Part shown: in pieces, positions 4,839 through 49,288 of the stretch | How positions within the stretch are numbered: the first letter of the stretch is position 1 | Layout: the number at the start of each line of letters is the position of its first letter | Virus record (IMG/VR): IMGVR_UViG_3300027833_000001 | Span: 101,128 to 165,127 of that record | Source: a virus | Direction: 5' to 3' (one strand) | Length of the DNA stretch: 64,000 bases | The notes under the pieces: model-generated | The model's input: only the letters and a program-made list of their open reading frames with translations | The model's database searches: none | Told to the model about the DNA's origin: nothing | Position numbers and translations under genes: made by a program

Positions 4839-5285
4839 ATGTCAGAAGAACAACCTAAGTACAAAAACCCCATTTGGCTAAACAAAGAGAATCGCTCAAT
4901 TGAGTGTGACATTCTCTATGGCAAAGAATATCAACGAAGCATAATCAATGCAGGTCCAGCTTCAGAAGGATATGTCAATAGAGATTATGATCAGATTATG
5001 ATAGACATCGGTGAAACGGAAATTGATCGTCTTACAGTCATAGATGATGAAAGTAAAGCCGAAGCGGTTGTGAAAGCAAAAGAACAAGAAGAAGTTCACA
5101 AGAATAGAATCAAACAAGAAACTCTATTTGAAATTAAACTTGAGGCTTTTGAAATTCCCATCATCAAAAATTCTAAAAATTCAGAAATGAAGAAGAAAAT
5201 TCGTAGGGCAAAGAACCCACTAGAGGTTACTGCATATGCGACAATACTCATACAAGAAGAATTAGGTGCTGTAATAGATGACTAA
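4839..5285 (+). CDS. hypothetical protein, possible fibre accessory or chaperone
   Basis: 148 aa. The N-terminal half (NPIWLNKENRSIECDILYG) resembles small proteins that accompany fibre genes in marine T4-like phages. The C-terminal half is strongly charged and helical (residues about 70-140). No catalytic motif is seen. The ATG has a clear GAGGA ribosome site, and the end overlaps the following glycosyltransferase start by 8 nt, so the two are likely co-translated. A fibre assembly role is a guess from position. Confidence 0.6.
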   Translation: MSEEQPKYKNPIWLNKENRSIECDILYGKEYQRSIINAGPASEGYVNRDYDQIMIDIGETEIDRLTVIDDESKAEAVVKAKEQEEVHKNRIKQETLFEIKLEAFEIPIIKNSKNSEMKKKIRRAKNPLEVTAYATILIQEELGAVIDD

Positions 5286-6015
5286 GGGCTACGTTTATGT
5301 GGCTTCTCTGAAAAAAGACTATTACTATGCCGCCAAGCTGTCGGCACTATCTTTATTAGATTTTTATCCAGATGCCAAAATTACACTATTCACTCATGCC
5401 GCGTGGGTTGAATTAGATGACTTCAAAATATTTGATCAGATACGAACAACGGATCTTATGGGTGTCGATATGCCCGTCAATAATCGTGCCAAGCTGTGGG
5501 CATTATCACAGACTCCATATGACTTGACAATGTACCTTGATTGTGACACCATGATAGAAGATGGAGATATACGATTTGCGTTTGATTTTATTAGAGAACA
5601 TGACATAATATTCACTAGAAATAGACCGTACAACGCCAAGATCACTAAGCTAAATGATGAAGATGAGATGATCTACCATTGCGGTGTATTCGTATATAGA
5701 AACACTGACGCAGTAAAGAAATTAATGGATGACTGGTATTACTACTACAGAATCCAATGTGCGCCCGCGCATGATGTGAGTCCTTATCCCGAAGCAGTTA
5801 AACCATGGGATACATTTACAATGTGGTACTTACTAAATAAAACGAAGCACAAAGAAACTATTAATGTAGGAGAGTTTCCATCACCTGATGCTAGATGGAA
5901 TTTTGTCATGGGTCAACGACCTGAAGAATTGGAAGGTAATGATGTAGTTGTGAGACATTACCTATTAGATAGGCACTTTAATTCAAATGAAACTATTAAC
6001 GAACCTCAATCCTGA
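5278..6015 (+). CDS. GT-A-type glycosyltransferase-like protein
   Basis: 245 aa. Its N-terminus (YVYVASLKKDYYYAAKLSAL) has the pattern of an alpha/beta nucleotide-sugar fold, and a DxD metal-binding motif DCD lies at residues 88-90 within a beta strand (MYLDCDT). The later CGVFVY stretch and an acidic-aromatic C-terminal half fit GT-A enzymes of the GT8 or related type. It is the only plus-strand member of a group of five such genes around the fibre module. Likely role: transfer of a sugar to a phage structural protein or host glycan. Donor and acceptor cannot be read from sequence. It overlaps the next gene by 29 nt. Confidence 0.7.
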   Translation: MTKGYVYVASLKKDYYYAAKLSALSLLDFYPDAKITLFTHAAWVELDDFKIFDQIRTTDLMGVDMPVNNRAKLWALSQTPYDLTMYLDCDTMIEDGDIRFAFDFIREHDIIFTRNRPYNAKITKLNDEDEMIYHCGVFVYRNTDAVKKLMDDWYYYYRIQCAPAHDVSPYPEAVKPWDTFTMWYLLNKTKHKETINVGEFPSPDARWNFVMGQRPEELEGNDVVVRHYLLDRHFNSNETINEPQS

Positions 6016-6637
6016 ACTGTTAGAACGCCTTGACCGCTATCGAAATTGGTTTGATGAGCAAGACGATATCAATACAATTATTCCTGATAAAGATAGAGAA
6101 GGTACACATACACTAGAAAGTGCAACATCTCCAGAGTATCTAAAAGAAGTACAAAAAGATACACACGCAGGCACACCAGAATGTGCTATAGTTACTGACT
6201 TTCATATAAGTGATGGCTCACCTACAAAGTATCGAAATGCTTCCCTAGAGTTATGTACAGACGTATGTGCATTTTTAGGAGCAAAATTTACTGCCGTTCA
6301 TGCATATTATCCAGCAGATGGATTTATGGGATGGCATTGTAATTGGGATACTCCTGGATATAATATTCTTTTGAGTTACAGCGAAAATGATCAAGGCTTC
6401 TTTAGGTATACAGATAAAGAAGGTAACATTGTAACGATGTATGATACACCAGGATGGTCAGCTAAGGTTGGTTATTTTGGAGGCAAAGATGAAGACGCAT
6501 CTAATATTGTTTGGCATTGTGCGGGAAGTAAATTGCCTAGACAGACATTAGGATTCGTCATTCCAGATAGAGATATGTGGCAAATGATGATAGATGATAT
6601 AGATGATAAACCTTTTAATAGAAGTCTATTCCCATGA
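5987..6637 (+). CDS. 2OG-Fe(II) oxygenase-like double-stranded beta-helix protein
   Basis: 216 aa. The core at residues about 105-195 has the layout of a 2-oxoglutarate/iron oxygenase: a YPADGFMGWHCNWD stretch with a candidate first histidine, a glycine-rich strand, then WHCAGSKLPRQTLGFVI with a candidate distal histidine and the Arg that binds 2OG. The position normally holding Asp of HxD is Asn here, with an Asp two residues later. Activity is therefore uncertain. Its start lies 29 nt inside the glycosyltransferase gene and its stop overlaps the next small gene (ATGA), which suggests translational coupling. Confidence 0.6.
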   Translation: MKLLTNLNPELLERLDRYRNWFDEQDDINTIIPDKDREGTHTLESATSPEYLKEVQKDTHAGTPECAIVTDFHISDGSPTKYRNASLELCTDVCAFLGAKFTAVHAYYPADGFMGWHCNWDTPGYNILLSYSENDQGFFRYTDKEGNIVTMYDTPGWSAKVGYFGGKDEDASNIVWHCAGSKLPRQTLGFVIPDRDMWQMMIDDIDDKPFNRSLFP

Positions 6638-6804
6638 AGAGTCGATGGGAAGTCTGGAAACACGCTCTAGGTTCTTTTGATGAAGAAGATGGGTACGATG
6701 CACTTAATGAAGATCGCATAGCATTAATAAGAACTTTCATAGTGGGTTCTAATTTACTATGCGCTTACGTCATTATAATTAATATCATTGTTGGTTGGTT
6801 CTAA
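6634..6804 (+). CDS. small membrane protein (56 aa)
   Basis: Starts in an ATGA overlap with the preceding stop. The translation begins MKSRWEVWKHALGSF and ends in one hydrophobic segment of about 20 residues (LLCAYVIIINIIVGWF). The WEVWKHALGSF motif is one I associate with small proteins of marine T4-like phages, from memory. It has a single predicted membrane span with an acidic N-terminal part. It is convergent with the minus-strand methyltransferase, the two ends overlapping by 4 nt. Function unknown. Confidence 0.75.
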   Translation: MKSRWEVWKHALGSFDEEDGYDALNEDRIALIRTFIVGSNLLCAYVIIINIIVGWF

Positions 6805-7499
6805 AAGAAACCTTCTCGTTGACCTATAATCATAAATCGGTCATATACTTTCTTGCCTTCCCATGAGTAATAAGTTTGCTGTCTAGTACCTTCATATCCA
6901 ACTTCATCGATTCCAACTTGATCTTTTAAATCAGCGATACTACTTACACAGTTAATACCGTACATCTCTTCAATAACATTACTATTTTGTACTGCAAGAA
7001 CAGCATTTGGATTCTTTGTAGTCAATTCTTTAAGTGGATACATTTGTTCTGTACACATACAGATAACTAGGTCAACATCAATCTTATTTAAATTTTCAAA
7101 TTCAAATGGAACATCTAGATTCCAATGACGAATGTTTACAAATTTTTCTTGGGCGTAATACTTGTGAAGAATTTTAGATAACTCAATCGACTCTTCATCA
7201 ATATCTACCATGTGTATTTGTGATACATCAATGTTCTCACATAGCAACGGTACTATAGGCATACCTAGCCAAGAGTTTAATATCAGTACTCTCATAGAAC
7301 CAGTTTTAGTGTAGTACTCTTCCATGTACTCTTTAACTTCTTCTATTAGCCAAGTGCTGGCTTCCATGTTGTTGCCTTCTAGTGACTGTCTAAAGTCAAC
7401 CAGCTTATGTGGCATTCGTTTTTCAATAACCGAGAGTGCTTCACCCCAGTTTTTAAAGTTGTTTAGAAAATTATAATTTAATTCTTTAGAACTTGACAT
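6801..7499 (-). CDS. SAM-dependent methyltransferase-like protein
   Basis: 232 aa from the chosen ATG at 7499 (peptide MSSSKELNYNF), which has a GGGGA/AGTGAAG leader; an upstream in-frame ATG at 7571 would add 24 residues that overlap the previous gene and look non-coding. The middle has a Rossmann-type motif I strand (RVLILNSWLGMPIVPLL) and an acidic strand end (IHMVDIDEES) as in class I methyltransferases, then DLVICMCTEQ as a motif IV candidate. It is the last gene of the minus-strand glycosyltransferase operon. A role in methylating a sugar or another small acceptor is inferred. Confidence 0.65.
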   Translation of the reverse strand: MSSSKELNYNFLNNFKNWGEALSVIEKRMPHKLVDFRQSLEGNNMEASTWLIEEVKEYMEEYYTKTGSMRVLILNSWLGMPIVPLLCENIDVSQIHMVDIDEESIELSKILHKYYAQEKFVNIRHWNLDVPFEFENLNKIDVDLVICMCTEQMYPLKELTTKNPNAVLAVQNSNVIEEMYGINCVSSIADLKDQVGIDEVGYEGTRQQTYYSWEGKKVYDRFMIIGQREGFF

Positions 7500-8160
7500 C
7501 TTCACTTTTCCCCATTGAGTCAAAAATACATACGTATGGTAGATCACGATACACATGAGATTCAGTATCATGTGGATGGATAAAACCTTGATTGAAACTA
7601 TACACCCAACCTATTGGGAATAGTTTAGTTTTTACAATTCGTCTATTATAGAAAAAGTTATCCAGACCACGATAATACCATAATATTTGAGACTTGTATT
7701 GATTGAAATATTCAGTGATTTCATTACTATTTAGACTATCATTCCAACGAAGAACTGACGAATTTAAATCAGTGTACTTATGTGGAATGTGGCGTGTATC
7801 TTTGTATTGAGTCTCTAAGTCGTGCCACCATGTTTTAACGAAACATAAACAATCTTCAGGATCAAAGTTTGCTATATCATCGATGTTCTTTTGTAGTATA
7901 GTATCTAAATCAAAGAACATCTTTTCACCTCTTTGAGTAACAATAGTCTCATCGAAGAGGTACATTTTATTCCACCACTTCTCCAATTTGTTACCACCAG
8001 GCAATGAAAGTATTTTAATATCAGAATTTATATCTTTACTATCTTCAGTTAGACAATGAAACGTAAAATCTATTGTCAGGTTCTCAAGACAACTTTCATA
8101 TAGTTGATTGACATGAGATGCATTATATTTTGTACCCCATTTTACAGTATAGATATTCAT
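7486..8160 (-). CDS. glycosyltransferase-like protein, DLD type
   Basis: 224 aa from the ATG at 8160, which overlaps the upstream stop as ATGA; the longer in-frame start at 8172 is less likely. The N-terminus (IYTVKWGTKYNASHVNQLY) repeats in the neighbouring genes and marks one family. The metal-binding DLD sits at residues 84-86 (MFFDLDTILQ), followed by NSSVLRWN and a GWVYSFNQG segment shared with its neighbours. It is a GT-A-like transferase of unknown donor. Its 3' end overlaps the methyltransferase by 14 nt. Confidence 0.7.
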   Translation of the reverse strand: MNIYTVKWGTKYNASHVNQLYESCLENLTIDFTFHCLTEDSKDINSDIKILSLPGGNKLEKWWNKMYLFDETIVTQRGEKMFFDLDTILQKNIDDIANFDPEDCLCFVKTWWHDLETQYKDTRHIPHKYTDLNSSVLRWNDSLNSNEITEYFNQYKSQILWYYRGLDNFFYNRRIVKTKLFPIGWVYSFNQGFIHPHDTESHVYRDLPYVCIFDSMGKSEDVKF

Positions 8161-8975
8161 TCGCCTCTCCAATGTCTAAGAAGTTCTGGATGGGAGAGAT
8201 CATCTTGTTTAGTACTTCCTCTACTTGCATCTTCAAATGGTAGTAAGTCAATATTAAATACACAGACAATACAGTGTTCTCTATACTTGGCTACATTCAA
8301 ATCATCTTCATCCCATGATCTACCTCTATTCCAAGAGTATGCCATCCAAGATGGAAAATGATCCCATAAGTCTTCACCATATCTACCCCATTTCCATGAG
8401 TGGTAGTTATCAGTTCCATCTGTATATGTAAACCATATCTTCTTTTGGTTTGCCATCACATCATCCCAAATACACTCACATTGATCATCTGACCATACTT
8501 TACATGAGCCATTTGTATACGCTCCATGTGATAGTTTAAATCTTCTTGTTTGCATTGGTTTAGGATCTTGCCACCACGATTTCATTTTTGTGGGTCTTTC
8601 CATATTGTATGTAATTATAGGAGTTAAGTCACCTTGAATAATTACATCTAAGTCAAAGAACACAAAGCGACCACTAGGTTTATCAGGAGCAAAGTTGTGC
8701 GTGTTGAATACAAAAGTCTTTGCTCTGTCCCAACACCTTGCCATTCCATACTTAAAATCTTCAGCACCAAACCAATACTTAGGATGTATGTCTGGAATAT
8801 CTGGGAAGTCAATTATCTGAACATCATCATCGATACCCTTAGCATCATCTGTATAGCAATAGAAATGAAACTCAAACTGATCGGGAGTATTTCTCTTTGC
8901 CATCTCTTTCAATCTGTTTACAAAATGTGGTCCATATTTCGTACCCCATTTAGCACATACATAATTTACTCTCAT
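8157..8975 (-). CDS. glycosyltransferase-like protein, DLD type
   Basis: 272 aa. Same family as its neighbours: N-terminal VCAKWGTKYGPHFVNRL, the DLD at residues 108-110 (VFFDLDVIIQG), a CWDRAK motif at about 81-86, and the late WMAYSWNRG segment. The start overlaps the stop of the 833-aa gene (ATGA), and its own stop overlaps the next start, so the operon is translationally coupled. It probably transfers sugars in the cytoplasm to a phage or host acceptor. No signal peptide or membrane span is seen. Confidence 0.7.
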   Translation of the reverse strand: MRVNYVCAKWGTKYGPHFVNRLKEMAKRNTPDQFEFHFYCYTDDAKGIDDDVQIIDFPDIPDIHPKYWFGAEDFKYGMARCWDRAKTFVFNTHNFAPDKPSGRFVFFDLDVIIQGDLTPIITYNMERPTKMKSWWQDPKPMQTRRFKLSHGAYTNGSCKVWSDDQCECIWDDVMANQKKIWFTYTDGTDNYHSWKWGRYGEDLWDHFPSWMAYSWNRGRSWDEDDLNVAKYREHCIVCVFNIDLLPFEDASRGSTKQDDLSHPELLRHWRGE

Positions 8976-11473
8976 TTACATTTACCACATTTCATTGTAC
9001 ATATATTCAAAGGCTTTCTCTTTAGATGTTCGCTGATATTAGCAAAATCTGTATTGTGTATTACTTCACCTGTAGTAAAACCTGCTAAGTTATTATACTT
9101 CATATTGTATGGATAGTCAATAGGGTGATATGGTAAAAGTTTATTTTCTACTACATCTCTTGCAATGAACGCACAAGGAAAAGCATTACTAGACGAACCA
9201 ATATAAAAGTATCCACTTTTTCTAGCATCACACCATACTGGATCTTTTTCTTTCATTTTTGGTTTAGTTGTTCTTATTTCATTTTTCTTTGCAAACTGCT
9301 TTAGGGTGTGAAAGTCTATTGGTTTATCTTTTGCAATAGTATTTTCAATTTGATTCTCTTGTTCTGACTTTAACTCAGGCAGTACTTTTTGTATATGATC
9401 AACATATACAAGAGACTCAATATCACTAAATGTTTGTAGGGTTATAGTAATATTTTTGTCTTTTAAGTACTTACAGATTTCTTCTAACTCTACACAGTTT
9501 ACTGGGTCTGTTATTTCACACATAAAAGTTACCCAAGAAACTTTGTAACTATCGAATATATTTTTTATACTCTTTAGAGTGTGTTCATTACCGTCTACAA
9601 AAATGTCATTGAACTCTATGTTCGTATCATTCTGGCGAGTACTCAATTGTATCAGTGCGCCATCTGGTTCTTCATCTTCATATAGACCACGATATAAGTC
9701 ACTGTATTGTTCTCCATGCATTTGGAAATATTTTATGAGTGTATTTGTATCATCATTTTTCTGATTCATTATAGAAAGCAATTCTTCTTTAGGCATGATG
9801 TTGTATAATCGCTCAAAGACTTTCTCATAATTTTCTTTGTAAAACAATTCTTTTAGATATTCGATATAATATTTTTTATATAGCGATTGAACCTCATCCG
9901 AATCTGTATCCCAGAAGATACACTGAATACCATTGTCTACTACATTCTTCATAAAGTCTACTTTAATTGTTGGTAAAGTATTTTTATGCCACATTCTTCT
10001 ATACAATGCGATTGCTTGTAGTCTAGTTATTTTCCAAAAGTATCTTACTGGTCCGTGTACTTTTACTTCTTCTGCTACAACTTTGTGCATCTTAGAAATA
10101 TATCTTTCTTTGTAGAAATCATATACTTCCATTACAGTTTTGTTCCAGTACAATGATTCGTCACCATTTACAAGCATTGAGTCATCTGGATAATCAGCAA
10201 TAAACTTCTTGTGCATAGAAATCATATCGCCAGTTTCATAAAGTTCTTTTATGGTCTGTAAATGTATTGAATCTATTTGTCTAATAAATGTAGTATCTGA
10301 TATTTCTCTTTCCAATTCTGGAAGAGATTTCTTTATATCGTCTACATTACCAGTTAAGTGTGCATCTATCTCTGGAAAATCATTTACGAATTTATTTACA
10401 AGAGACTGTAAATCATTGCTCTTTATCAGTGATTCAATATCTTCAACAACCTCTTTATTCATAAAACGATTCTCTAACATTTCATCTGTCAGAGATTTCA
10501 TTCCTAACCATTCTTTTAGAGTGTTGAAATTTTTTGAGTACTGATCCCAATCAGACCGTAGGCTAGGCAAATCTTTTGCAAATTTCTTTTCTAGTGTATC
10601 GTAGTCTTTATTTGTAAGAAGATTATCAATCTTAACCGTGTGCTTGTTTCTAGTAAAGAAGTTTTTAGGAAATTTAGGTAACCATAACTTTTCAAATTCA
10701 TCTTTGCCGTGCCAATGTATTAATAGATTGTAATTCTTTAGTTCGTGTGGTTTAACACCAGACGTATTCTTACCAAGCATATCGACATTGAACAGAGCAA
10801 ACTTTGCATTATCTCTATACAAGTTTTGTGAAAGATCATCTGGATATTGTTTGCCTCTATTGTAAGAGTACACCCAGTCTACTGGTAAGAAGTTCCAGTA
10901 ATTATCACCCACTGTTTGATGTTCTCTATATGGATAATAATTGTCGGTGCCTTTATAGAATGTTTTGAACACAACATCACTATGTGCCATAACATCATCA
11001 TAAATCTTTTCACCCTGATCAGTACACCACAACATCACACTAGAGTTATATAGTGATCCTTTTATATCTAAGAATCGTCTATCTTTAATTACAGAGGGAT
11101 CTTCCCAATGAGAATAGATCATATGAGGAGACTTTGCGAGTTGTTCTATTTCGTCAATGTTGTTTTGTATTATGATATCTAAATCAAGATAGCAGAAAGG
11201 ACCTTTTGTTTTTAGCCATCGATGTGAATTGAGCATAAGAAACTTGGCTCTATCCCAACAGTAATTCTCTTCACCAAACCAGTATCTAGGATGTAATGGC
11301 TTAACATTAGGAATTGGGCGAGTAGTAATACCCTTATTGATACCTTCTGGCTCATCTGTATAGCAGATGAATTTAAAACGCTTTGTATAATTGCGTTTGA
11401 CCATTCCGTGAAGGTTGTTTACATATTCTGCGGTATACTTGTTACCCCATTTTATGCATAGAAAGTGCATCAT
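8972..11473 (-). CDS. fusion: glycosyltransferase, helical repeats and SPASM-like Cys-rich end
   Basis: 833 aa, about three times the length of its paralogues. Residues 1 to about 285 form a DLD glycosyltransferase (DLD 97-99; CWDRAK about 72-77; WVYSYNRG later). The middle, about 285-590, is helical and holds four divergent units of the form L-N-D-Y/L-xxL-xxKF-xxDxP. Residues about 620-833 contain a (beta/alpha)-like stretch (VSWVTFMCEITD, then ITITLQTF) and a cysteine-rich tail (C of VWCDARKSGYFYIG; FPCAFIA; ICTMKCGKC). That tail resembles the SPASM ends of radical-SAM proteins, but there is no CxxxCxxC cluster motif. It starts 32 nt inside the preceding gene. Confidence 0.65.
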   Translation of the reverse strand: MMHFLCIKWGNKYTAEYVNNLHGMVKRNYTKRFKFICYTDEPEGINKGITTRPIPNVKPLHPRYWFGEENYCWDRAKFLMLNSHRWLKTKGPFCYLDLDIIIQNNIDEIEQLAKSPHMIYSHWEDPSVIKDRRFLDIKGSLYNSSVMLWCTDQGEKIYDDVMAHSDVVFKTFYKGTDNYYPYREHQTVGDNYWNFLPVDWVYSYNRGKQYPDDLSQNLYRDNAKFALFNVDMLGKNTSGVKPHELKNYNLLIHWHGKDEFEKLWLPKFPKNFFTRNKHTVKIDNLLTNKDYDTLEKKFAKDLPSLRSDWDQYSKNFNTLKEWLGMKSLTDEMLENRFMNKEVVEDIESLIKSNDLQSLVNKFVNDFPEIDAHLTGNVDDIKKSLPELEREISDTTFIRQIDSIHLQTIKELYETGDMISMHKKFIADYPDDSMLVNGDESLYWNKTVMEVYDFYKERYISKMHKVVAEEVKVHGPVRYFWKITRLQAIALYRRMWHKNTLPTIKVDFMKNVVDNGIQCIFWDTDSDEVQSLYKKYYIEYLKELFYKENYEKVFERLYNIMPKEELLSIMNQKNDDTNTLIKYFQMHGEQYSDLYRGLYEDEEPDGALIQLSTRQNDTNIEFNDIFVDGNEHTLKSIKNIFDSYKVSWVTFMCEITDPVNCVELEEICKYLKDKNITITLQTFSDIESLVYVDHIQKVLPELKSEQENQIENTIAKDKPIDFHTLKQFAKKNEIRTTKPKMKEKDPVWCDARKSGYFYIGSSSNAFPCAFIARDVVENKLLPYHPIDYPYNMKYNNLAGFTTGEVIHNTDFANISEHLKRKPLNICTMKCGKCK

Positions 11474-12101
11474 AATATTTCTGTCTCAAATTAACGGTAG
11501 TTTCACTTTGTCCGTTCAGTAGTACTATAGGATATTCTGGTAATATCTGATACGCTCTAGGTGAAGTATCAGTCTCAGTATCTACACCACATAAAAATGA
11601 ATAAATCATATTTTTAGGAAATGTTCTTTGAATCAATTTTTCATGGAATAAATACCAATCATCATTGTCTTTATATTTAGTCATGTAGTAATCAATGTTT
11701 TCTAGCCAATCATCATATATCAAAGATGGGTGTTTTTCATCTGAATTCCATGTCATCACCGAAGAGTTGTATTTACTTCCAAAATCTTTCCAGTAGGTTT
11801 GACATATAGTTGGCTTATCACAGTAAGAAAAGAATTCATATATGTCACATTGTAACACAATATCTAGGTCTAAGTAAAGAACTTCACCAATATTTTTTAG
11901 ACTAAATAGTTGTATCTTTCTCCAATTACTTTCAATATCTTCATTAATGAATTTAACATCTATTTCAGGTCGAAGTAAATGTGCATGGTCTGAAGTAGTT
12001 AAACAAACATAATTATATTCGCCACGAGTACTATCATATATTCTATGTACGTCATCAACGCTATACTTATCTCCATACAGAAGGGTTAGGATTGTCTTCA
12101 A
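11442..12101 (-). CDS. glycosyltransferase-like protein, first gene of minus-strand operon
   Basis: 219 aa. Start is TTG at 12101 with GGAG seven bases before it; the residues that follow (KTILTLLYGDKYSVDDVHRIY) line up with the N-termini of its paralogues, which supports this start. DLD lies at residues 78-80 (LYLDLDIVLQ), followed by NSSVMTWN. It is the shortest and most promoter-proximal of the four minus-strand transferases. The gap to the divergent plus-strand gene is only 52 nt, and no convincing minus-strand promoter is visible in it. A TTG start may keep expression low. Confidence 0.68.
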   Translation of the reverse strand: MKTILTLLYGDKYSVDDVHRIYDSTRGEYNYVCLTTSDHAHLLRPEIDVKFINEDIESNWRKIQLFSLKNIGEVLYLDLDIVLQCDIYEFFSYCDKPTICQTYWKDFGSKYNSSVMTWNSDEKHPSLIYDDWLENIDYYMTKYKDNDDWYLFHEKLIQRTFPKNMIYSFLCGVDTETDTSPRAYQILPEYPIVLLNGQSETTVNLRQKYYDALSMHKMG

Positions 12102-47311: not shown

Positions 47312-48241
47312 ATGGACGAATTTTTATTTGTCGAAAAGTATAGACCTAAAACCATTGATGAATGTGTGTTACCAAAATCGATTAAAAAAACATTTAATCA
47401 AATGGTCAGTAATGGTGAGATAACAAATCTACTGCTATGTGGTAGTGCTGGTACTGGCAAGACTACAGTAGCAAGAGCATTGTGTAATGAATTAGATTGT
47501 GATTATATTCTAATCAACGGCTCTGAAGAATCTGGTATCGATGTATTGCGTACCAAGATTAAGAAGTTTGCAAGTACAATGAGTTTCGAAAACAAAACTA
47601 AAGTGGTCATTTTAGATGAAGCAGACTATCTAAATCCAAACTCTACTCAACCAGCATTACGTGCATTCATTGAAGAGTTCTCTGCCAACTGCCGATTCAT
47701 CTTTACGTGTAATTTCAAAAACAGAATCATCGAACCCTTACATAGTAGAACTACTGTGGTCGAGTTCCGTTTGGACAAAGCTGACAAGCCAGAAATGGCA
47801 ATGCAATTTCACAAACGTATGAAAGATATTCTGGACATTGAAGAGATTAAATACTCTGATAAAGTTCTTGCTGAATTACTCAAGAAACATTTTCCAGACT
47901 ATCGTAGAGTTCTGAATGAACTTCAGCGGTACAGTATTGGTGGTGTTATTGATGAGGGTATACTGAGCAACTTGGCTGAGATGAATGTCAAGGGACTAAT
48001 CGATGCACTCAAAGATAAAGACTTCAAGAAAATGCGCCAGTGGGTAGCAAACAATGTTGACACAGATCCACAGGGCATCTATCGTAAAGTTTATGATGCG
48101 TTGATCGACAAAGTAAAACAAGTACCTCATTTGGTGCTGTTGATTGCAGACTATCAGTACAAAGCCGCATTCGTATCAGATCAAGAAATCAATCTTACCG
48201 CTTGCCTAACTGATATCATGGCTTCAGTTGACATAAAATGA
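47312..48241 (+). CDS. gp44: clamp loader large subunit gp44
   Basis: 309 aa (T4: 319). AAA+ ATPase with Walker A GSAGTGKT at about 44-51, Walker B VILDEAD at about 101-107, and the SRC-like motif replaced by LHSRTTVVEF (arginine finger) near 146-155. Forms the 4:1 complex with gp62 that loads gp45. The gp62 gene lies 2.2 kb downstream, separated by cargo genes. Overlaps the radical-SAM gene by 4 nt (ATGA). Confidence 0.93.
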   Translation: MDEFLFVEKYRPKTIDECVLPKSIKKTFNQMVSNGEITNLLLCGSAGTGKTTVARALCNELDCDYILINGSEESGIDVLRTKIKKFASTMSFENKTKVVILDEADYLNPNSTQPALRAFIEEFSANCRFIFTCNFKNRIIEPLHSRTTVVEFRLDKADKPEMAMQFHKRMKDILDIEEIKYSDKVLAELLKKHFPDYRRVLNELQRYSIGGVIDEGILSNLAEMNVKGLIDALKDKDFKKMRQWVANNVDTDPQGIYRKVYDALIDKVKQVPHLVLLIADYQYKAAFVSDQEINLTACLTDIMASVDIK

Positions 48242-49044
48242 CACGCATAGTTGCGATAGACTATGAAATCTCAAGTACGTGCCAAGCAAGATGCCCAGTT
48301 TGTATTCGTCAAGACGGTGGAAAACTAAAAGATTTCGTACAGACCCAAAGAACACTTGATGAAACTAAACACATCTTACATGGTGTAGCCAGTGGATTAG
48401 AGTTTGTTAAATTTTGTGGTAACTATGGTGACCCAATGGGTTGTGATGCAGTTGCAGATATATCTGAGTGGCTGATATCAGAAAATCCTAAAGTTAGAAT
48501 TGATATAGCAACTAACGGTGCTATAGGAAAACCAGATACATACCGCAGATTAGGTAAAATGGGAGTCAATGTTATATTTGGATTTGATGGATCAGATCAA
48601 GAATCTAATCAGTTGTATAGAAGAAACGTCAAGTGGTCAGATGCAATGGATAATTTAAAAGCATATAGTTCTGAATGTACCGCACAACATTCTTCTTGGC
48701 AATATTTACTGTTCAATGAAAATAAGATTAATTTAGAAAGAGCAATACAAATTGCAATAGAACATAAAATTAAAATGTTTAATATTAACGAAAGACCTAA
48801 TCCATTTTCTACCTCTTTTCATTCATCTATAGATAAGTTGTCTGGAAAATATGACATAATACAAAGCGAAGGATCAAACGATTTTAAAGAACTAGCGTCC
48901 GGGGGTGAAAAACTGCGAGTGTATTATGGTGCTGGTACGTATGATGAAAGCGATATAGAATATTCACTAACACCTGCTTATAATATGTCAGCACACATAC
49001 AAAAACTAAAGGAAAAATATGACACAGACTTGCATTTCGTATAA
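48238..49044 (+). CDS. radical SAM enzyme, N-terminal part of a split gene
   Basis: 268 aa. The cluster motif CxxxCxxC is intact: C15, C19 and C22 in CQARCPVC. KFCGNYGDPMG (about 58-68) matches the GGE-like SAM-binding turn, and DIATNGA and VIFGFDGSD fit later barrel strands. The last 9 residues run into another frame: the following open frame (49019) continues the family. Removing one base from the A-run at 49013-49017 would join both frames. Probably a maturase- or SPASM-type enzyme; substrate unknown. Confidence 0.8.
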   Translation: MTRIVAIDYEISSTCQARCPVCIRQDGGKLKDFVQTQRTLDETKHILHGVASGLEFVKFCGNYGDPMGCDAVADISEWLISENPKVRIDIATNGAIGKPDTYRRLGKMGVNVIFGFDGSDQESNQLYRRNVKWSDAMDNLKAYSSECTAQHSSWQYLLFNENKINLERAIQIAIEHKIKMFNINERPNPFSTSFHSSIDKLSGKYDIIQSEGSNDFKELASGGEKLRVYYGAGTYDESDIEYSLTPAYNMSAHIQKLKEKYDTDLHFV

Positions 49045-49288
49045 CTGGACACTTTCGCATACTTACATTTCAGATTTTTCAGAAAAGAATCTGAACCTCT
49101 TTATTTCTTTTGATGATAAAGTTTTTCCTTGCTGTATGACAGCTAGTCAACAACCAAAAACAGGTGTTGCTATGAATGGTAGAAACTTACAAGAAGTGGT
49201 TGATAGTGGCGAACTTAATAATATGTACTATGATGATTTGAAAAATGGTACGCCATCAAAATTCTGTGCGGAGACTTGTGGAAGATGA
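49019..49288 (+). CDS. SPASM-like C-terminal part of the split radical SAM gene
   Basis: 89 aa beginning at ATG 49019, 5 nt after AAAGGAAAAA which could act as a ribosome site. The peptide holds Cys5, FPCCMTA at about 37-43 and a FCAETC end, the spacing of a SPASM or twitch auxiliary cluster domain. It overlaps the preceding frame by 26 nt in the +1 register. Either a separate subunit or the end of one protein. The overlap with the next gene is ATGA. Confidence 0.68.
   Translation: MTQTCISYNWTLSHTYISDFSEKNLNLFISFDDKVFPCCMTASQQPKTGVAMNGRNLQEVVDSGELNNMYYDDLKNGTPSKFCAETCGR

Follow-up and report, generated by a model that had tools for sequence, protein, structure and literature searches.

The 64,000-nucleotide stretch of DNA analysed here (the window) runs from position 101128 to 165127 of an IMG/VR virus record 165127 bases long. 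Genes for a terminase, a tail sheath and a major head protein lie within it, and this predicted gene content fits a T4-like myophage. On the minus strand, at 8972-11473, is an 833-aa open reading frame that extends from ATG to TGA without an internal stop. Its predicted product is a three-part fusion, with a GT8-like glycosyltransferase (GT) at the front, a series of helical repeats in the middle and a pseudo-radical-SAM/SPASM domain at the end.

The fusion gene belongs to a tight minus-strand operon of four GT genes followed by a weakly methyltransferase-like gene. A GT paralogue at 11442-12101 (phrog_1962, E = 2.4e-11) overlaps the fusion gene, and two more lie at 8157-8975 (sharing 38% identity with the GT domain of the fusion) and 7486-8172 (phrog_1962, E = 2.1e-9); each of the three, all on the minus strand, has a DLD motif. 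The final gene of the operon (6801-7571, minus strand) gives only sub-threshold Pfam matches. By the called ORF starts, neighbouring genes overlap by 4 to 86 nt. The structural genes around the operon are on the plus strand, and a match to a head-tail adaptor follows a few kb further on. Just past the operon, on the plus strand, is a further GT-like ORF with a DCD motif (5278-6015), overlapped by another ORF (5987-6637); neither has a PHROG match.

The glycosyltransferase domain and the helical repeats

Residues 1-270 (10664-11473, minus strand) form the GT domain. The phrog_1962 glycosyltransferase profile matches residues 7-113 with an E value of 5.9e-5, and DLD at residues 97-99, an instance of the DxD metal/nucleotide-sugar motif, is nearly invariant. 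This agrees with an earlier note on this DNA, made from the sequence, which had placed a DLD transferase at residues 1 to about 285. When the full-length AlphaFold model was searched with Foldseek, its front domain, modelled with low confidence, matched glycogenin/LgtC; Foldseek also matched the GT domain to a phage family-8 GT. The protein has in common with GT8-like glycosyltransferases (phrog_1962; glycogenin/LgtC fold) a GT-A style front with DLD. Unlike them, it carries repeats and a predicted dead radical-SAM/SPASM end, and Pfam GT8 gave no match in any of 25 members of the fusion family.

Residues 277-600 (9674-10645, minus strand) correspond to a spacer that is modelled confidently as all-helical. 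Repeat motifs, fitted by eye, begin at residues 285, 349, 411 and 543, and the distances between them (64, 62 and 132 residues) point to a period of about 65 residues. The earlier note had described four divergent units. All four motifs were found, and the helical model supports repeats, as do an offset match of the relative L011 (E = 9e-7) and an extra unit in longer relatives; within the single 833-aa protein, however, a comparison of non-overlapping units gave no greater similarity than shuffled sequences.

Recurrence of the fusion

The fusion of GT and C-terminal domain recurs in about 60 IMG/VR contigs, an approximate count that includes several incomplete ones. These relatives retain the domains at both ends and differ in the helical middle: it is absent in forms of 438-478 aa, about 210 aa long in forms of 731-737 aa, about 315 aa in forms of 832-835 aa, and about 390 aa in the 909-aa forms, which hold the extra repeat unit. 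The spacer, being absent from the short forms, is dispensable. The earlier note had considered that the 833-aa fusion might be a misassembly, an idea we rejected given the number of contigs that carry the fusion and its occurrence in several lengths.

A tblastn search of 50,697 phage records with the C-terminal domain and with its unfused relative gave no match. In cellular genomes there was a single match (L083, Saprospiraceae); the only ORF that it overlaps is long, repetitive and unrelated, and we took the match as chance.

Relationship of the C-terminal domain to radical-SAM/SPASM enzymes

The C-terminal domain spans residues 603-833. Searches of Pfam, PDB and NCBIfam with the window protein as a single sequence returned nothing useful, and profile searches of PDB sequences gave chance matches only. 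Profile-profile comparison was more telling. A longer relative of the domain, A8 (profile built from 15 related phage proteins), aligned by hhalign over the whole length of residues 603-833 (E = 4.8e-18), with a gap of about 70 residues at the later barrel strands of A8. Radical-SAM/SPASM proteins are present in the Campylobacter phages CP220 and F379 (PMC2853527). A8 aligned in turn with the F379 proteins, which keep CxxxCxxC (E = 2.4e-8, 219 columns), across the barrel and the first SPASM cysteines. The window domain also aligned directly with the F379 proteins (E = 1.9e-5) and with the radical-SAM gene that lies in the window itself (E = 1.3e-5). In all six profile pairs compared, the real score exceeded those of 100 column-shuffled profiles and of the reversed profile.

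The earlier note had seen a barrel-like stretch and a cysteine-rich tail in this part of the protein, and had likened the tail to that of the split radical-SAM gene at 49019. Both elements are present, and the likeness is real though weak taken alone: with the separate SPASM ORF near 49019, the domain aligns at E = 6.6e-4 (probability 27%), pairing FPC and the terminal C-x3-C-G, and none of 100 column shuffles scored as high. Beyond what was noted then, residues 603-715 (9329-9667, minus strand) are a shortened, decayed radical-SAM barrel, as indicated by hhalign to active radical-SAM proteins and A8 and by the order of strands and helices in the model, which resembles the start of a radical-SAM barrel.

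Structure prediction points the same way. The AlphaFold model of the domain (42 sequences; pLDDT 77, pTM 0.73) retrieved radical-SAM/SPASM/twitch enzymes as its first 11 PDB chains in Foldseek, including BlsE, SpeY, SuiB, PqqE and a sactipeptide maturase. The best probability was 0.99 and the best E value a modest 3.7e-3; with the full-length model, SuiB came first. Pfam SPASM matched 21 of the 25 fusion-family members at E ≤ 1. At the curated cut-off of PF13186, one member passes (L055, 21.8 versus 21.5 bits) and the window protein does not match.

Another explanation is that the tail binds zinc and only resembles SPASM without being related to it, or that the fusion is an assembly artefact. 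The low probability of the tail-only comparison would be in keeping with this, but the whole-domain comparison chain, the fold search and the spread of the fusion over many contigs make it very improbable, and the alternative of an unrelated fold, raised earlier, is not borne out. The C-terminal domain almost certainly descends from radical-SAM/SPASM enzymes, as far as profiles and models can tell.

Loss of the catalytic motif and retention of cysteines

Active radical SAM enzymes are defined by a CxxxCxxC motif after strand 1, which binds the [4Fe-4S]-SAM cluster, and their fold is a partial TIM barrel built from about six strand-helix units. At the corresponding barrel position, CxxxCxxC is missing in every aligned family member, as the earlier note had observed for the window protein. 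Aligned opposite the motif of the F379 proteins is a loop at residues 611-625 (STRQNDTNIEFNDIF; 9599-9643, minus strand), in which a conserved N-D-T...FND replaces CxxxCxxC and N615, F621, N622 and F625 are invariant in 25 members. In A8, the loop at this position is shortened away. The window protein retains the first part of the barrel only, with about 70 residues missing relative to A8. Given the replacement of CxxxCxxC by a conserved loop and the deletion within the barrel, the domain is predicted to be dead, and it is highly likely that it lacks radical-SAM catalysis. Being radical-SAM/SPASM by descent but without the defining catalytic motif, it does not merit annotation as a radical-SAM enzyme.

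The SPASM-type tail (residues 733-833; 8975-9277, minus strand) is supported by cysteine invariance, Pfam SPASM and hhalign to the SPASM ORF of the window. Five cysteines, in the arrangement C-x18-C...C-x3-C-x2-C, are invariant in the fused clade (25 members): Cys748 (9230-9232), Cys767 (9173-9175), Cys825 (8999-9001), Cys829 (8987-8989) and Cys832 (8978-8980), all on the minus strand. The C-x18-C spacing of Cys748 and Cys767 is the same as in the active F379 proteins, and the only C-x3-C-x2-C of the 833-aa protein is this terminal one. The region has too few cysteines for a full two-cluster SPASM and so reads as twitch-like. It seems probable, though by no means certain, that metal is bound at the kept cysteines. 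Most A8 proteins instead have H-N-E-Q-x-G-x-C in the tail, with two of the three tail cysteines replaced, so these unfused relatives may do without the metal or bind a different one.

Compared with radical-SAM/SPASM and twitch enzymes (BlsE, SpeY, SuiB, PqqE and the CP220/F379 members), the domain shares the barrel start, the order of strands and helices, C-x18-C and the C-terminal C-x3-C; it differs from them in lacking CxxxCxxC, in having about 70 fewer barrel residues and in being joined to a GT.

Retained cysteines might also mean that the SPASM cluster is redox-active, gating or assisting the transferase or accepting electrons for another enzyme of the operon. The invariance of all five cysteines and the active radical-SAM genes in the same genome would suit such a role. 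On the other hand, GT chemistry needs no redox step, and the cysteine replacements in most unfused relatives would be hard to reconcile with it; we regard a redox function as quite unlikely.

The C-terminal domain is under purifying selection: dN/dS lies between 0 and 0.15 in comparisons with a finite dS, and saturation affects several of the comparisons. Between the window and L001, the domain is 98% identical and the GT 88%. These values, together with the persistence of the domain in some 60 contigs, argue strongly against a functionless vestige, which the loss of the catalytic loop and of part of the barrel might otherwise have suggested; a vestigial domain is scarcely credible, and we rejected it on the dN/dS values.

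Unfused relatives and gene adjacency

We compiled 78 GT-centred loci, which overlap in origin, so that the counts are not independent events. In 51, the closest GT is unfused and directly followed by a gene for a pseudo-GT plus pseudo-radical-SAM (A8) protein; in 19, the closest GT is fused to the pseudo-radical-SAM domain. In three others the next gene is another GT and the domain is not adjacent, which indicates that it is not universally needed. The front of the unfused partner is a decayed GT without DxD, aligning to the GT profile at E = 1.1e-4 over its first 43 residues. An example of the unfused arrangement is L198, where an intact GT (L198:3647-4414) is followed immediately by a gene encoding about 500 aa (L198:4392-5900); about 50 other loci are similar. 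The two parts of the encoded protein, GT-like without DxD and full-length radical-SAM/SPASM without CxxxCxxC, are both decayed.

The wider family shows intermediate stages: enzymes that are active and full-length, partner genes that are full-length but dead, and fusions that are both dead and shortened. Proteins encoded by adjacent genes in one clade and as one polypeptide in another usually work together. Since this is the arrangement seen here, we infer that the GT and the pseudo-radical-SAM domain are partners.

Other radical-SAM genes of the phage

The phage genome has eight radical-SAM domain matches. Most lie outside the window in an array (G000:C1:54485-62410; locus L104) made up of five to six genes in succession, several of which have an N-terminal SPASM-like CC region. 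Judging by names read from sequence, the array adjoins GT-like, UDP-glucose-dehydrogenase-like and carbamoyltransferase-like genes. Within the window, a plus-strand radical-SAM gene with intact CxxxCxxC occupies 48238-49288; its frame stops at 49044, and the SPASM tail is read in the +1 frame, beginning at an ATG (49019) that lies before that stop. Six other contigs (L085-L090, about 74% aa identity) and the near-identical L084 show the gene divided in this way, again with a 26-nt overlap, which makes an assembly error unlikely. The gene may encode a two-subunit enzyme made by translational coupling, or it may undergo programmed frameshifting.

Abundant radical-SAM domains in the genome bear on a further explanation, in which the dead domain binds a peptide and the GT glycosylates a peptide that is also modified by an active phage radical-SAM enzyme, in a RiPP-like route. 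The presence of SuiB, PqqE and a sactipeptide maturase among the fold matches is in its favour as well. However, the top matches, BlsE and SpeY, belong to pathways for sugar-containing antibiotics and are not peptide enzymes, no precursor was identified, and the overlapping genes of the operon leave no gap for one. Overall, we consider a peptide route unlikely.

Proposed role

Our preferred reading, to which we assign a probability of about 0.5, is that the gene encodes a phage GT8-like GT permanently joined to a pseudo-radical-SAM/SPASM subunit with a docking or acceptor role. The GT domain would do the chemistry, moving a sugar from a nucleotide sugar with the help of DLD. The dead domain would carry out no radical chemistry; it would bind and position the acceptor or dock on a partner from the GT operon. 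We infer this docking or acceptor function as the likeliest role of the domain, at roughly even odds; the earlier note had likewise suggested that the protein may position a transferase on a partner, peptide-like or cluster-bearing. The cysteines of the domain would bind metal in a structural role, most probably as a single Fe-S cluster, and the helical repeats would act as a spacer that sets the distance between the two ends of the protein. During infection, the operon might modify a host surface glycan or a tail protein. The history of the subunit would then be one in which the SAM-cleaving [4Fe-4S] site and the later barrel strands were lost and the SPASM-type cysteine site was kept.

A broader claim, which we put forward only tentatively, is that dead radical-SAM/SPASM domains with a retained Fe-S cluster are the acceptor-recognition subunits of an undescribed class of phage GTs, either fused or encoded by a neighbouring gene, and that the class of substrate is inherited from the ancestral enzyme.

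Comparison with known systems

The GtfA/GtfB system of serine-rich-repeat adhesins pairs an active GT with a subunit that is catalytically dead. The partner in our unfused clade likewise begins with a decayed GT, a working resemblance and not a sign of membership; unlike in GtfA/GtfB, the dead partner here is derived from radical-SAM/SPASM and has a predicted metal site. In pelagimyophages, a comparable hypervariable host-recognition cluster that includes GT8 glycosyltransferases and radical-SAM cassettes lies between VrlC and the neck gene (PMC7029224). The phage studied here shares with them the placement of GTs in the structural-gene region near neck genes and the presence of radical-SAM genes in the genome. 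In the passages of that paper considered here, GT8 enzymes and radical-SAM cassettes appear as separate genes, and no fusion of a GT with a dead radical-SAM/SPASM domain is described.

A limited search of the open-licence literature likewise turned up no account of a GT fused with a dead radical-SAM/SPASM domain. The earlier note's description of the architecture (a GT, helical repeats and a SPASM-like end without the radical-SAM motif) was right, and its remark that no named family has this architecture stands, in that we found neither a named family nor a paper.

Reuse of dead enzymes as binding subunits is familiar among kinases and glycosyltransferases. For a pseudoenzyme subunit built from a radical-SAM/SPASM enzyme, our limited literature search found no earlier report. 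The family would offer a clean test of whether the SPASM cysteine site does anything without radical chemistry, and it points to a working unit inside the GT clusters of marine T4-like phages.
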